From the IMG/VR virus record IMGVR_UViG_3300012964_000052, positions 1 through 25,623 of that record: a stretch of DNA of 25,623 bases; one strand, 5' to 3'. This DNA is from a virus. This document shows positions 3,106 to 25,556 of the stretch, piece after piece. The position numbers and the translations under genes were made by a program. The notes under the pieces were generated by a model that searched no databases, had not been told where the DNA came from, and saw nothing but the letters and a program-made list of their open reading frames with translations. Numbering within the stretch: the first letter of the stretch is position 1; each line of letters begins with the position of its first letter.

Positions 3106-3468
3106 TTAGGCAGGTTGATCGAACACTGTGCGTGCTCTTACATTACCAAATTGGTCTGCAAATACTTCAGGGCTCTGTTCGACAACCACTTGTTGTTCTC
3201 GATATGCAGCATCGAGTTGTCCAATTTCCTTAGGATATTTTTCTCTGATATAGTGTTCGAACTTATCATAGTCATCCATACCGTGGCGTGCACCAGTGAT
3301 CATCTTGCGATTAATATAATCACCAATGGCACTGGACATAGTGTAGTGTCTATTTCTGAGTTGATTCACAAACTCAACTTTTTCACTAACTTCCCATTCG
3401 CCTGTTCTGGAACCTTTTTTAATATTATGTTTATGCGAAACAACGATATATACTTTTTCTTTTTTCAT
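3106..3468 (-). CDS. Conserved phage hypothetical protein
   Basis: 120 residues, starting MKKEKVYIVVSHKHNIKKG. A central conserved-looking stretch (VEFVNQLRNRHYTMSSAIGD, about residues 31-50) and a helical segment around MDDYDKFEHYIREKYPKEI look like a small globular protein with no membrane segment or signal peptide. AAGAAAG upstream serves as ribosome-binding site. It ends one base before the HAD gene and starts 11 nt after the preceding gene. I have seen similar proteins in T4-like phages but know of no function. Confidence 0.75.
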   Translation of the reverse strand: MKKEKVYIVVSHKHNIKKGSRTGEWEVSEKVEFVNQLRNRHYTMSSAIGDYINRKMITGARHGMDDYDKFEHYIREKYPKEIGQLDAAYREQQVVVEQSPEVFADQFGNVRARTVFDQPA

Positions 3469-3479
3469 AATTTACTTTC

Positions 3480-3749
3480 TTAATAATATTTGTTATATTT
3501 CACATCTTTTCTATTGAAAAATTTAAGACGCAAAAATGTATCAGCCTCTTTTGAGTAGACCAGAAGAATTGCTGTTTGCTTACTGGTGGCAACAGCCACA
3601 CCTACCCCACCGATTTGAACACCACGCTCATCATAGGTGTTATGAAATGCTTCTCGATATTCTCTAAATACATCAGTAGATGGTGTATCCCCGATAGAAT
3701 ATTCGTATCTGGAATAAATTACCTGCTTATGACATGAAGAATTAGTCAT
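3480..3749 (-). CDS. Small hypothetical protein
   Basis: 89 residues, MTNSSCHKQVIYSRYEYSIG at the N-terminus, then a beta-rich-looking core (GVQIGGVGVAVATSKQTAIL) and a basic, Tyr/Lys-rich C-terminus. No known motif. Its start overlaps the HNH endonuclease stop by 4 nt (ATGA), so it is probably translated by coupling. Because of this it may have travelled with the endonuclease, but nothing else supports that. Confidence 0.6.
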   Translation of the reverse strand: MTNSSCHKQVIYSRYEYSIGDTPSTDVFREYREAFHNTYDERGVQIGGVGVAVATSKQTAILLVYSKEADTFLRLKFFNRKDVKYNKYY

Positions 3750-13593: not shown

Positions 13594-14190
13594 TTAAACT
13601 CGTTTTGAAACAATATGGTCAGCCAGCCCGAGTTCAATTGCTTGCGAAGAAGTCAACCATTTGTCGCGATCCATTAATTCCACGAAGCGTTCATATGTTA
13701 CACCCTTGGAATTATGGTGGACATACAGCTCTGTCATTTCCTTTTTGATGCGCAGACTTTCAATCAAATCGATTTCCATATCCGAAATCTTACCGCGTGT
13801 GCCCGACGAAGGCTGGTGAATCATAGTGATGGAACGAGGCATCAGATAACGATGTCCAGGTTCACCAGCTTGCGCAATAAATGATCCCATAGAGGCAGCC
13901 ATACCAGTTACGTAAGTATGCACTGGGCATTTGATATATTGCATAACGTCATAAACGCCAAGCCCATCATATACAGAACCACCGGGGCTATTGATATACA
14001 TGCTGATGGGCATATCCGAATTTTCAGCTTCAAGGAAAAGCAATTGTGCAACAAGAATATTACACATGTTGGTTTCAACTTCGCCAGTTAGGAACACAAT
14101 TCGTTCCTTCATCAGACGAGAATAAAGATCATATGAACGTTCACCGCGAGAGGTTTGTTCTACGACCATTGGGATTAAAGAATTTTTCAT
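13594..14190 (-). CDS. clpP: ClpP-like serine protease subunit
   Basis: 198 residues, the usual ClpP length. The fold motifs are clear: [17 protein letters not shown], the nucleophile motif GMAASMG (S100) and MIHQP (H125). At the place of the catalytic Asp (E-D-M-x-R-D in chloroplast ClpPs) it reads VELMDRDKW, so Leu172 replaces Asp, with D174 two residues on. It may be weakly active or need hetero-oligomers with host ClpP. It would form a barrel fed by a host ClpA/ClpX unfoldase. AAGGA precedes ATG 14190. The phage also has clpS (25245-25556). Confidence 0.93.
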
Positions 14191-22882: not shown

Positions 22883-22897
22883 ACTATTTTAAATAGT
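22883..22897 (-). promoter_or_regulatory. 15-bp palindrome over the ligase -10 box (operator candidate)
   Basis: ACTATTT (22883-22889) and AAATAGT (22891-22897) around one central base cover the whole -10. The 9-mer TAGTTGTTA in this promoter's spacer also occurs in the promoter at 12717-12745. Confidence 0.4.
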
Positions 22898-22914
22898 AAC
22901 AACTAAGATGTCAA
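22886..22914 (-). promoter_or_regulatory. Sigma-70-type early promoter of ligase (TTGACA, 17 bp, TAAAAT)
   Basis: -35 at 22914-22909 (perfect), -10 at 22891-22886. It lies in the gap between the 59-residue gene and ligase. Confidence 0.8.
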
Positions 22915-22922
22915 ATGGCATT

Positions 22923-23102
22923 TTACAATATAGATCTAAGTTCTTTCTCAATAATATAATTAGCCATCTCGGGTAATAGCTTAAGGTAAATTCTGTCATG
23001 ATGTGTCTCACAATATGATTTACCGTACATAGTAGGATGCCTACATCCTTCGCCATCGCCCTTCCAGGCACAGACATGACTTTGTTTTTCTTGTTCTTGC
23101 AT
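22923..23102 (-). CDS. Short Cys/His protein (59 residues), probable zinc-binding
   Basis: Starts MQEQEKQSHVCAWKGDGEGC; key residues C11, C20, H22, C31, H34 and H35 (CRHPT, then YCETHHDRIY) form a likely zinc site. The end LPEMANYIIEKEL is helical. I recall the same pattern (CAW-GDG-GC-HP-YC-HH) as a small conserved protein of large phages, function unknown. A longer frame (22889-23134) covers the same DNA but lacks any such pattern. The start lies 12 nt after the tRNA-like RNA, with only a weak ribosome site (AAG), so the RNA above may control its translation. Confidence 0.72.
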   Translation of the reverse strand: MQEQEKQSHVCAWKGDGEGCRHPTMYGKSYCETHHDRIYLKLLPEMANYIIEKELRSIL

Positions 23103-23114
23103 AATCTTAAATTA

Positions 23115-23253
23115 GGTGCCCCTTCGTGGAACACATCAAACCACGGACCTATCGGTTAAGAACCGATTGCTCTATATTAGTGTAACTAGGTCGACATAAA
23201 CCTACAGGGCCCTGCGCGGTACAGTGGCCGACTGTTTTTCTGAGCTAAAGAGG
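23115..23253 (-). ncRNA. tRNA-like RNA, Lys(CUU)-type anticodon arm, with a 69-nt D-loop
   Basis: Cloverleaf elements in order: acceptor CCTCTT (23253-23248) with AAGGGG (23124-23119); TA; D-stem GCTC/GAGC (23245-23242, 23172-23169); anticodon stem ATCGG/CCGAT with loop TTCTTAA (anticodon CTT, 23160-23158); variable AGGTC; T-stem CGTGG/CCACG (23145-23141, 23129-23125). The D-loop is 69 nt instead of about 8, and contains hairpins ACAGT/ACTGT and TAGGT/ACCTA plus the palindrome CAGGGCCCTG. The T-loop is 11 nt (TTTGATGTGTT). The 3' end reads CACCT, not CCA. The predicted transcription start falls on the first acceptor base. Not an ordinary tRNA; a tRNA mimic or decayed tRNA. Confidence 0.6.
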
Positions 23254-23259
23254 AAATGT

Positions 23260-23288
23260 ATAATAACATTACCCTTTTATTGTGTCAA
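23260..23288 (-). promoter_or_regulatory. Strong sigma-70-type promoter of the tRNA-like RNA (TTGACA, 17 bp, TATTAT)
   Basis: -35 at 23288-23283 is perfect, -10 at 23265-23260 has 5 of 6. It abuts the TAG stop of the upstream gene. Start predicted about 7 nt past the -10, at 23253. Confidence 0.85.
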
Positions 23289-23618
23289 CTATTCAGTTTC
23301 TTCCAGATGCTCTAGAATAATTTTGTCGTATCCATACTTAACTGCGTATTCAATTATTTCTGCAAGAACAACCTCTTCCTCGGTTGTTGCGTACCAGAGC
23401 ACTCTTGTAGGGTCAATTGCTTCGGTGCCTTCGAGTACTGCAATAGATTTCTCTAAATACGATGAAATAGTATCAAACTTTTCGAGAGTAAATTTACCAA
23501 GTGCAGCGTCGAGTATCTCTGAATGAGGAATAACCTGTATGGTATTAATAATCTTTCCATTAGAATCAGCAACTGTATAATCTGTACCCAAACTCTCGAC
23601 ATGTGTTATTCTATACAT
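23289..23618 (-). CDS. Hypothetical protein cotranscribed with the SOD-like gene
   Basis: 109 residues. N-terminal beta-like segment (MYRITHVESLGTDYTVADSN), then acidic helices (LEKFDTISSYLEKSIAVLEG; EEVVLAEIIEYAVKYGYDKI). No Cys and no known motif. It begins directly after the SOD-like stop, with GAGG 9 nt before ATG 23618, so the two are probably made together. Could be a partner or regulator of that protein, but this rests on position only. Confidence 0.7.
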   Translation of the reverse strand: MYRITHVESLGTDYTVADSNGKIINTIQVIPHSEILDAALGKFTLEKFDTISSYLEKSIAVLEGTEAIDPTRVLWYATTEEEVVLAEIIEYAVKYGYDKIILEHLEETE

Positions 23619-24167
23619 TTAATTTAACCTCGTGTTAATGATATCCCAATTTATAATTTTCCAAATATCTGTAAGATATTTTTCTTTATCAGCACCGTAA
23701 TCTAGAATATACGAATGCTCCCATAGATCTACAATTACAGCAATATCATCAACAACTTTATGATTGTTGATAGTTTTAATTGTTCCGCTGGTCGAAAGAT
23801 AGATCCATCCCGCGCCTTTTAAATCAAGCGCAATTTGCATAAACTCCTCTTTGAATGTTTTATAATTGTCGAACTTCTTTGTTATAAGAATTTCGGATAT
23901 GCCACGTGGATTGTTCGACGATGATGGCGCTTGAAATTGTTCAAAGAACAATGTGTGTAATTTTGCTCCAGCAATTTGAAATTCACCTTCGCCAGCCAAT
24001 GCTTTCTTTACATAATTTTTATAGAGTGTGCCATAATGAAGGTCTATCGTCTCTTGTGAGAAGACAGGCGCAAGCACCTTAGTAGATACTGGAAGTTTAA
24101 TTTGATATATTTCATTCGCAGCCCGAATTTTTTCAAACAGGACACGAAATGGTGAAGTCTGTATCAT
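23619..24167 (-). CDS. Fe/Mn superoxide-dismutase-like protein
   Basis: 182 residues. The SOD plan is intact: APVFSQETIDLHYG (H44), AGAKLHTLFFEQF (H71), GAGWIYLS, VDLWEHSYILDYG (D147, H151), then INWDIINTRL. All four metal ligands of Fe/Mn SODs are present. The Tyr gateway (Y52) is kept but the second gateway His (E. coli H30) is Leu48. The W after H71 and other active-site residues differ, so activity is uncertain. It may remove superoxide during infection or serve a structural role. A late box lies 4 nt before ATG 24167, with no Shine-Dalgarno. Confidence 0.8.
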   Translation of the reverse strand: MIQTSPFRVLFEKIRAANEIYQIKLPVSTKVLAPVFSQETIDLHYGTLYKNYVKKALAGEGEFQIAGAKLHTLFFEQFQAPSSSNNPRGISEILITKKFDNYKTFKEEFMQIALDLKGAGWIYLSTSGTIKTINNHKVVDDIAVIVDLWEHSYILDYGADKEKYLTDIWKIINWDIINTRLN

Positions 24168-24171
24168 ACTG

Positions 24172-24179
24172 TATTTATT
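24172..24179 (-). promoter_or_regulatory. T4-type late promoter box (AATAAATA) for the SOD-like gene
   Basis: AATAAATA overlaps the stop codon of the upstream gene and ends 4 nt before ATG 24167, so a transcript from it would be leaderless. Confidence 0.55.
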
Positions 24180-25212
24180 AAAAATGCAGAAACTTTGACT
24201 TATTACTATAGAACCTTTCTACACCGATTGTGCGCTCCAATGTGGCGCGCTCGATAATCGGAACTAAGAATTCTCCAATACTTTCAAGGTGATTTTCTTC
24301 GGAAATTGTGCCGAGATCCAATGATTCAATGTTTGTATGAGAATCAGATGGTAGCTGTCCAACAATAACTGGTGTGAAGGTTACTTTTCCTTTACCATAG
24401 ACGACGTGTCTATGATCAAAGAGAAAATTATAATCTAATTCAACTGGCTGAACTCCCACAATTTTATGAAATTCATGCTGATCAGAATTAATACATCCAA
24501 GAAGTTCAATAGACGACTTATATCCCGGCATAATCTTACTCTCATCAATTACACTCGACGATCCTTTACCAAACAGGAGATGAGTATATTTTGCATAATC
24601 CTGTACAATAACATTTCTTAGGCAAAATGATAAGGCTGATTTATGATTCTGATAAAAAGTAGAAAGATTTAATTGAGAATTGTTCTGGAGAATATAGTTA
24701 GTCACCGAGTTTAGGGCACAATAACTTTCAAATTCTTCAACAATCTCAACATTGATATCTGGTGACACATTAAAAACCACAACAGAACTGTAAAATGTTT
24801 CATAATCAGATTTATGACGTATATAAATAGGTTCATCCACTTCACCGACAATTCGAAACATTGTGTGATTTTGACAAATCAGATAAGAAATTGTTGAAAA
24901 TACAGTTGCATCATAGAGGCTTTTTGGATTATTTTGTCCAATATCCTGATTTTCCATAGAATTGACCACCTCTATATTAGGATGATCATACATATCTTTG
25001 CTAATCAATACTTCATTACCAGATATGATTACAATCAACCCTCTCAATGTCGGGTCAACGATCATCTGTGTCTTGTTATTCTGAATAAGGAACCGTTGAT
25101 CGAAAAAATGTGTAAGGTTTGACTTAGAATATTTAGGCTGAACAGAAGAATAAGCTAATTCTTGATAATATTTTCCAAGAAATGTTTTAATTGGTATTAG
25201 ATTTGGTAACAT
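24178..25212 (-). CDS. Hypothetical protein with possible SufB/SufD-like core
   Basis: 344 residues. From about 115 to 300 it reads as many short strands: EVDEPIYIRH, SSVVVFNVSPDINVEIVEEF, NYILQNNSQLNLSTFYQN, then GYKSSIELLGC and DHRHVVYGKGKV. This order resembles the beta-helix of the SufB/SufD iron-sulphur scaffold proteins, but the strict HGA motif and key Cys are not obvious, so a different beta-helical protein is quite possible. N-terminal 60 residues basic and aromatic. Late box 24 nt before ATG 25212; SOD-like gene follows 10 nt downstream. Confidence 0.6.
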   Translation of the reverse strand: MLPNLIPIKTFLGKYYQELAYSSVQPKYSKSNLTHFFDQRFLIQNNKTQMIVDPTLRGLIVIISGNEVLISKDMYDHPNIEVVNSMENQDIGQNNPKSLYDATVFSTISYLICQNHTMFRIVGEVDEPIYIRHKSDYETFYSSVVVFNVSPDINVEIVEEFESYCALNSVTNYILQNNSQLNLSTFYQNHKSALSFCLRNVIVQDYAKYTHLLFGKGSSSVIDESKIMPGYKSSIELLGCINSDQHEFHKIVGVQPVELDYNFLFDHRHVVYGKGKVTFTPVIVGQLPSDSHTNIESLDLGTISEENHLESIGEFLVPIIERATLERTIGVERFYSNKSKFLHF

Positions 25213-25218
25213 TGAATT

Positions 25219-25234
25219 CTCGTATACATACGAG
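25219..25234 (-). promoter_or_regulatory. Hairpin at the late transcription start, masking the ribosome site
   Basis: On the minus strand CTCGTAT (25234-25228) pairs with ATACGAG (25225-25219). The 3' arm ends in GAG, the only Shine-Dalgarno-like bases before ATG 25212. The predicted late start (near 25230) removes most of the 5' arm. Confidence 0.5.
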
Positions 25235-25235
25235 A

Positions 25236-25243
25236 TATTTATG
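25236..25243 (-). promoter_or_regulatory. T4-type late promoter box (CATAAATA)
   Basis: CATAAATA on the minus strand between clpS and the 344-residue gene; predicted start near 25230. Confidence 0.7.
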
Positions 25244-25244
25244 G

Positions 25245-25556
25245 TTACAGTTCCTCGAAGGTTGCTGTAAGTGGAAAGTCGTTGGCGCGAGCTGTAGCAA
25301 TTGTCTCCATTGCTTTCTCCTCAGCAATTTCCCTGGTGTAAGGTGCGCCGGCAATACCTTGACCGGTTTCATGAATGACCTGTGTCAACATTAGTGCATC
25401 TTCTAATTTTCTATGAAAGATGTGCACTAAAATTTGTATCACGAAGTTCATAGTCGTGGTATCGTCGTTATGAAGGATTACCTTGTACATCTTTGGAAGT
25501 TGTACCTCAATCTTATCTTCAACGCGCTCAATTACTTCAATATCTGGTGTTGTCAT
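25245..25556 (-). CDS. clpS: ClpS-like N-degron adaptor
   Basis: 103 residues from ATG 25556, close to cellular ClpS (about 106). ClpS delivers proteins with N-terminal Leu, Phe, Trp or Tyr to ClpAP. PKMYKVILHNDDTTTMNFV holds the substrate-pocket N30, D31, D32; IHETGQG holds H62 (E. coli H66). YTREIAEEKAMETI and FPL at the end also fit. The N-terminal 20 residues, which regulate ClpA, are present. An upstream ATG at 25613 lies in the -35 box and is rejected. GGGG 9 nt upstream is the likely ribosome site. With the phage ClpP this suggests control of host proteolysis. Confidence 0.93.
   Translation of the reverse strand: MTTPDIEVIERVEDKIEVQLPKMYKVILHNDDTTTMNFVIQILVHIFHRKLEDALMLTQVIHETGQGIAGAPYTREIAEEKAMETIATARANDFPLTATFEEL

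Follow-up and report, generated by a model that had tools for sequence, protein, structure and literature searches.

A tRNA-like RNA with a D-loop hairpin in large uncultured phages

Among the RNAs that mimic or recognise parts of a transfer RNA (tRNA) are transfer-messenger RNA (tmRNA), which has a tag reading frame, T-box leaders, which bind tRNA in cis, and the tRNA-like structures of plant viruses, which stand at genome 3' ends. Phage T4 makes rnaC (species 1 RNA), a stable late RNA whose function is listed as unknown (PMC9697503). AriB, the nuclease of PARIS, cleaves tRNAs with the common sequence U36-A37-A38-U and contacts the D-loop too (PMC12409363), and phage tRNAs have been proposed to escape anticodon nucleases via changes in the anticodon loop (PMC10264068). 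Here we describe a tRNA-like RNA with a hairpin in its D-loop, encoded by a stretch of viral DNA of 25,623 nucleotides (nt) (IMG/VR record IMGVR_UViG_3300012964_000052, positions 1 to 25,623), the whole of which is called the window below. An original prediction, made from the letters of the window, had drawn the RNA as a cloverleaf in front of a small zinc-protein gene. Comparison with related phages shows that the fold is conserved with compensatory changes, and its anticodon loop points tentatively to a decoy for factors that act on host tRNAs.

A covarying tRNA-like fold

Relatives were sought in IMG/VR with the DNA ligase, the zinc protein and the protein encoded upstream of the RNA, and with DNA patterns. 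The RNA was present in 33 other contigs, giving 26 distinct alleles including that of the window. All counts of alignment, pairs and core positions given below cover 24 alleles, aligned on sequence only with MAFFT. The covariance model R1, whose training set includes the window sequence, matched the window RNA with 128 bits (E value 8.5e-34). The parts of the RNA are as follows.

23115..23254, minus strand: tRNA-like RNA, placed by the R1 match (23111-23254) and the sequence alignment of alleles
23248..23254, minus strand: 5' strand of the acceptor stem, TCCTCTT, pairing with 23124-23118
23118..23124, minus strand: 3' strand of the acceptor stem, AAGGGGC, followed by A73 and CCT (23117-23114)
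23242..23245 with 23172-23169, minus strand: D-stem GCTC/GAGC, invariant in all 24 alleles
23189..23233, minus strand: hairpin inserted in the D-loop, with P3a of 7 base pairs (bp) (23233-23227 with 23195-23189), P3b of about 4 bp and the apex P3c
23205..23214, minus strand: apical palindrome CAGGGCCCTG, mostly GGYGGCGCCRCC in relatives, with a self-complementary centre, GCGC or GGCC
23179..23183, minus strand: D-loop strand of a kissing helix, ACACT, pairing with the T-loop strand across alleles
23131..23135, minus strand: T-loop strand of the kissing helix, TGTGT, which is AGTGT in most relatives
23151..23167, minus strand: anticodon arm ATCGG-TTCTTAA-CCGAT, with the anticodon CUU at 23160-23158 and a loop ending in U36 A37 A38
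23125..23145, minus strand: T arm CGTGG-TTTGATGTGTT-CCACG, with an 11-nt loop

The proposed structure has 41 pairs, and 92.7% of cells are paired. Twenty-seven of the pairs have changed on both sides, against 14.4 +/- 2.0 in shuffles and 5-12 in slid versions. The covariation score was 0.438, compared with 0.205 +/- 0.010 for shuffles and 0.05-0.09 for the slid controls, which somewhat favour the structure because it was partly derived from the same sequences. RNAalifold, unprompted, returned the acceptor, the D-stem, the 7-bp insert helix P3a, the apical hairpin P3c, most of the anticodon stem and the T-stem. The strongest structural evidence is the set of both-side changes in the acceptor (six of seven pairs; 97.6% paired), P3a (six of seven) and the anticodon stem (five of five). 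Such changes also occur in three of four pairs each of P3b, the weakest helix with 82.6% paired, and P3c; the T arm is 96.7% paired. Positions U8, A9, G10-C13, A14, G15, A21-A26, G46, C48, G53, U54 and U55 are invariant, as is G57 in the T-loop, while A58 is found in 23 alleles and A73 in 21. From these alignments, the tRNA-like architecture is almost certainly genuine and under selection.

Search programs did not report this RNA. ARAGORN found no tRNA in the window or in 35 related loci, and an Rfam scan of the whole window gave no match; on relatives, too, the two programs yielded nothing usable. The Rfam tRNA model RF00005 reached 13.3 bits (E value 4.2 on a 211-nt scan; gathering cutoff, 29). 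The folding energy of the window RNA is ordinary (z -1.55), and single-sequence energies (z -1.55 and -0.48) are not decisive.

The window D-loop spans 69 nt. Across alleles the ACACT in its 3' part can pair with the AGTGT of the enlarged T-loop, giving a 5-bp helix with 95.8% of cells paired. Two of the five pairs have changed on both sides in separate lineages, to ACATT/AATGT in locus L011 and to CGCT/AGCG in L012. These both-side changes were matched by 4 of 500 shuffles, and the best slide was 48.4% paired; the window has T/T at the fifth pair. The D-loop has no canonical GG contact, and the G18-G19 contact with a 7-nt T-loop that marks elongator tRNAs is absent. The sequences support the reading that a D-loop/T-loop kissing helix replaces the usual tRNA elbow contact.

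At its apex the insert has a 4-nt loop, which is GGCC in the window and L041 and GCGC elsewhere; both are self-complementary, and these were the only two loop types seen. Cofolding predicted dimers 9-20 kcal/mol below two monomers. These observations are suggestive, not proof, of a homodimer formed through the apical palindrome. As a side observation, the L012 and L022 alleles (3422-3597) carry about 32 extra nt on the D-loop's 3' side, which are predicted to form one more hairpin.

All cloverleaf parts named in the original prediction (the D-stem, the CUU anticodon arm, the T-stem, the 69-nt D-loop and the 11-nt T-loop) are present. The prediction had also asked for compensatory stem changes in homologues; these are found, and the D-loop insert is kept. 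Its loop sizes were right, but it had missed the pairing of part of the D-loop with the large T-loop. The 6-bp acceptor is correct for the window, where six pairs are joined by a T1/C72 mismatch, but most relatives have seven pairs. The 10-bp palindrome exists, not as a stand-alone element but as the tip of a conserved hairpin. The lack of CCA applies to this allele, which ends in ACCT, whereas 15 of the 24 aligned alleles encode ACCA at the 3' end. Alleles without an encoded CCA would need a CCA-adding enzyme.

Promoter, genomic context and turnover

Three further features surround the RNA.

23260..23288, minus strand: promoter TTGACA-17-TATTAT with TG ahead of the -10 box, 11 of 12 consensus matches, predicted +1 at 23254/23253
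23289..23618, minus strand: gene of a 109-amino-acid (aa) protein, directly upstream, no Pfam or PHROG match
22923..23102, minus strand: gene of a 59-aa Cys/His (zinc) protein, downstream, weak WRC match; other genes stand here in some relatives

The -10 box, taken as the best-scoring hexamer, ends 5-7 nt ahead of acceptor base 1 in all 24 alleles and exactly 6 nt ahead in 18. TG precedes it in 18 alleles, the spacer is 17 nt in most, and a -35 box of the TTGAAG/TTGATG type recurs across alleles at this spacing. L009 has no convincing -10 box. The near-consensus promoter starting at the first base of the cloverleaf, as first described, is thus borne out by the 11 matches and by the position of the -10 box, which is kept across alleles. 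Transcription is predicted to start at acceptor base 1, which would make 5' processing unnecessary. A second near-consensus promoter, TTGACA-17-TAAAAT, lies at 22886-22914 of the window, directly before the DNA ligase gene.

The gene of the 109-aa protein adjoins the RNA in all homologous loci examined and is also found in phages without the RNA; a fold search with this protein gave no confident match (no E value below 0.7). Only the close relatives L015 and L023 have an additional small gene, located after the RNA and before the zinc-protein gene. Further upstream on the same strand, positions 23619-25553 of the window encode ClpS, an Fe/Mn superoxide dismutase and a SufBD-core-like protein that narrowly misses the Pfam cutoff. 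ClpP is encoded at 13594-14190, and the order of ClpS and dismutase is kept in the contig L152 of 385 kilobases (kb).

The anticodon loop combines fixed and variable positions. U36-A37-A38 is invariant in all 24 alleles. At base 33, A stands in 15 alleles and U in nine, the window among the latter, and three alleles have an 8-nt loop. The anticodons seen are CUU, UUU, UCU, GAU and UAU, all of Lys, Arg or Ile type. At least 10 anticodon changes were counted on the protein tree, a quick tree with several weak branches, and recombination contributes to this count. Between L016 and L020 the preceding 350 nt are 98% identical and the RNA is 80% identical; between L015 and L016 the RNA is 95% identical and the upstream sequence 91%. 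This pattern looks like allele exchange. The RNA gene was also gained or lost at least five times, leaving clean empty sites, as counted on a tree that places its short rows poorly. Conservation of the fold, the promoter and the turnover are directly visible in the aligned alleles and loci.

The carriers are large uncultured phages, including contigs of 385 kb and 363 kb. The RNA is single copy where checked, these two contigs included, and the other R1 matches fetched from them are ordinary tRNAs according to ARAGORN. Jumbo contigs with the RNA also encode ordinary tRNAs, one of them a tRNA-Lys, so the RNA is not their only tRNA. Blastn of the RNA against isolate phages gave nothing or only short anticodon-arm matches to ordinary tRNAs. 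Pseudomonas phage PA5oct (Arenbergviridae), whose ligase made it the nearest isolate in the first set of hits, lacks the RNA and gave only short tRNA matches of at most 57 bits. When about 85,000 genomes of bacteria and archaea were scanned with a pattern, the R1 matches resembled ordinary tRNAs (at most 53.5 bits). Many of the 75 first viral pattern-scan matches were unrelated coding sequence, judged by eye, with no full R1 match, and a pattern built on the kissing helix gave no additional members. The RNA family was not found in the literature searched.

Candidate functions

The best explanation, which we put forward tentatively, is that this is an accessory, trans-acting, non-decoding phage RNA of tRNA descent, which would serve as a decoy by engaging tRNA-acting host factors. 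The sequences show that it has its own promoter, with a predicted start at acceptor base 1, that it retains the acceptor, the anticodon and T arms and the core of a tRNA, and that it has gained a D-loop hairpin with a self-complementary tip. Its 3' end would be trimmed and CCA-completed in the manner of a tRNA. The decoy would compete with host tRNAs of the ANN class (Lys, Arg and Ile type, with U36-A37-A38) and have no role in decoding. Its target would be a host factor that recognises both the anticodon loop and the D-loop, most likely an anticodon nuclease activated by infection, and the true tRNA pool would be spared. A changeable anticodon would follow the nuclease of the host, and the extra arm would exclude the decoy from the ribosome, stabilise it or dimerise it. 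In this proposal the stability of the RNA, its 3' maturation, its binding target and the dimer are what we infer.

Several observations lead to this proposal. The base other than U at position 33, the 8-nt loops, the anticodon turnover, the varied downstream genes and the empty sites together favour an accessory RNA that acts in trans and is exposed to changing selection. The invariant U36-A37-A38, taken with what AriB recognises and with the proposed escape of phage tRNAs, suggests the decoy. A tRNA mimic had been among the original suggestions, and it agrees with the invariant tertiary core, the covarying stems and the predicted +1 at acceptor base 1. Three points weigh against a decoy for a nuclease. 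First, U36-A37-A38 is also the plain mark of ANN-reading tRNAs of the t6A type, and the fact that it is conserved therefore does not point to a nuclease in particular. Second, AriB also requires U39 in Escherichia coli tRNA-Lys (PMC12409363), and the RNAs described here mostly have C39. Third, a nuclease-resistant replacement tRNA could leave similar traces.

Such a replacement tRNA, still able to decode, is the main rival to the decoy: a working, eccentric elongator tRNA for Lys, Arg or Ile that tolerates the D-loop insert and replaces host tRNAs destroyed in infection. We consider this possible but doubtful. It agrees with A73 in most alleles, with a CCA that is mostly encoded, with the intact core and with anticodons confined to three amino acids, and phage tRNAs have been reported to evade tRNA-cutting defences (PMC10264068; PMC11555353). 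The alleles also share with elongator tRNAs a cloverleaf with a 7-bp acceptor and 5-bp anticodon and T stems, and the core positions U8, A14, G15-C48, A21, R26 and U54-A58. However, they lack a 7-nt anticodon loop with U33 across alleles, a short D-loop and recognition by tRNA finders. Base 33, normally U in decoding tRNAs, is mostly A, loops of 8 nt occur, near relatives differ in anticodon, and the jumbo contigs have ordinary tRNAs, including the tRNA-Lys.

An improbable alternative is a cis-acting, tRNA-like leader or processing signal for the messenger RNA of the zinc protein and ligase, as had been suggested at the outset. The zinc-protein ATG does lie 12 nt past the RNA in the window, with no terminator between, as originally noted. 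However, the downstream gene varies among relatives, and five loci (L003, L044, L009, L041 and L065) have an apparent separate promoter for the next gene, read by eye. Moreover, the same zinc-protein gene directly follows the gene of the 109-aa protein, without the RNA, in five loci of distinct phages (L007, L010, L185/L186, L188 and L199), where the two genes are simply adjacent. These findings argue against a leader or sensor for the zinc-protein gene.

We regard as very unlikely that the CCA end is charged for a non-ribosomal reaction, such as protein tagging for the phage ClpS and ClpP. The ClpS gene stands four genes ahead of the RNA in both the window and L152, ClpP is encoded in the window, and A73 and CCA would suit charging, but no transferase was identified, the basis is purely positional, and PA5oct has ClpS and ClpP without such an RNA. 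It is scarcely probable, too, that the gene gives a precursor whose D-loop contains an intron and that splicing yields an ordinary tRNA. The insert splits the D-loop of an otherwise tRNA-like gene, but Rfam found no intron family. Because the enlarged T-loop pairs with the D-loop's 3' part, a normal D-loop/T-loop contact would still be missing once the insert was removed. A tRNA carrying an insertion, another of the original suggestions, is the likely ancestry, but covariation and RNAalifold indicate that the insert is now a structured, selected domain. A decayed tRNA gene, also suggested originally and in keeping with the absent CCA, the 1:72 mismatch and the silence of tRNA finders, is refuted by the strong covariation over the 24 alleles.

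Comparison with known systems

The classes of tRNA imitators named at the outset do not apply. No tmRNA was recognised by ARAGORN or Rfam, and the constant link to one downstream gene expected of a T-box-like or tRNA-like leader is absent among the relatives; neither these classes nor the plant-virus structures account for the window RNA. Canonical bacterial tRNA (RF00005) shares the core nucleotides, the stems, A73 and, with most alleles, CCA, and R1 gives ordinary tRNAs scores of up to 57 bits, but it lacks the 69-nt D-loop with a hairpin of its own and the 11-nt T-loop. The tRNA scaffold can thus evolve another D-loop/T-loop contact and an extra domain while its core stays fixed, and an RNA family backed by covariation escapes Rfam and ARAGORN.

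The phage tRNAs that evade nucleases (PMC10264068; T5 tRNA-Lys against PARIS, PMC12409363; PMC11555353) resemble the window RNA in their tRNA shape, their altered anticodon loops and the prominence of Lys. They are ordinary tRNAs intended for decoding, whereas most alleles of the window family carry A at base 33, and the family has a hairpin in the D-loop and an elbow of Watson-Crick pairs. If the decoy proposal is true, phages beat tRNA-cutting immunity by dedicated look-alikes besides resistant tRNAs.

T4 rnaC (L161:1909-2047) is, like the window RNA of about 140 nt, a phage RNA with a tRNA-like outline, and it is 139 nt long. In rnaC and its homologues (L202-L209), nine phages in all, 19 of 47 pairs have changed on both sides, compared with 7.2 in shuffles. 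Its layout comprises a 7-position acceptor, an anticodon-like hairpin, a canonical T arm and, on the D side, a domain of about 70 nt. The rnaC homologues of Melville and Kosakonia phage 305 carry a largely different sequence on the D side but keep the remainder. T4 rnaC differs from the window family in its ordinary 7-nt T-loop, in a 9-bp anticodon-like arm that closes a 6-nt loop, in the lack of CCA and in its place within a tRNA gene cluster. R1 gave no match to rnaC above chance. With homology undetected, the two RNAs look like separate solutions with one layout. We think it unlikely, but worth stating, that homodimer-forming RNAs with a tRNA core and a Watson-Crick elbow are a class of fast-evolving decoys against tRNA-targeting immunity, of which T4 rnaC would be an independent example. 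The window RNA also gives a handle on T4 rnaC.
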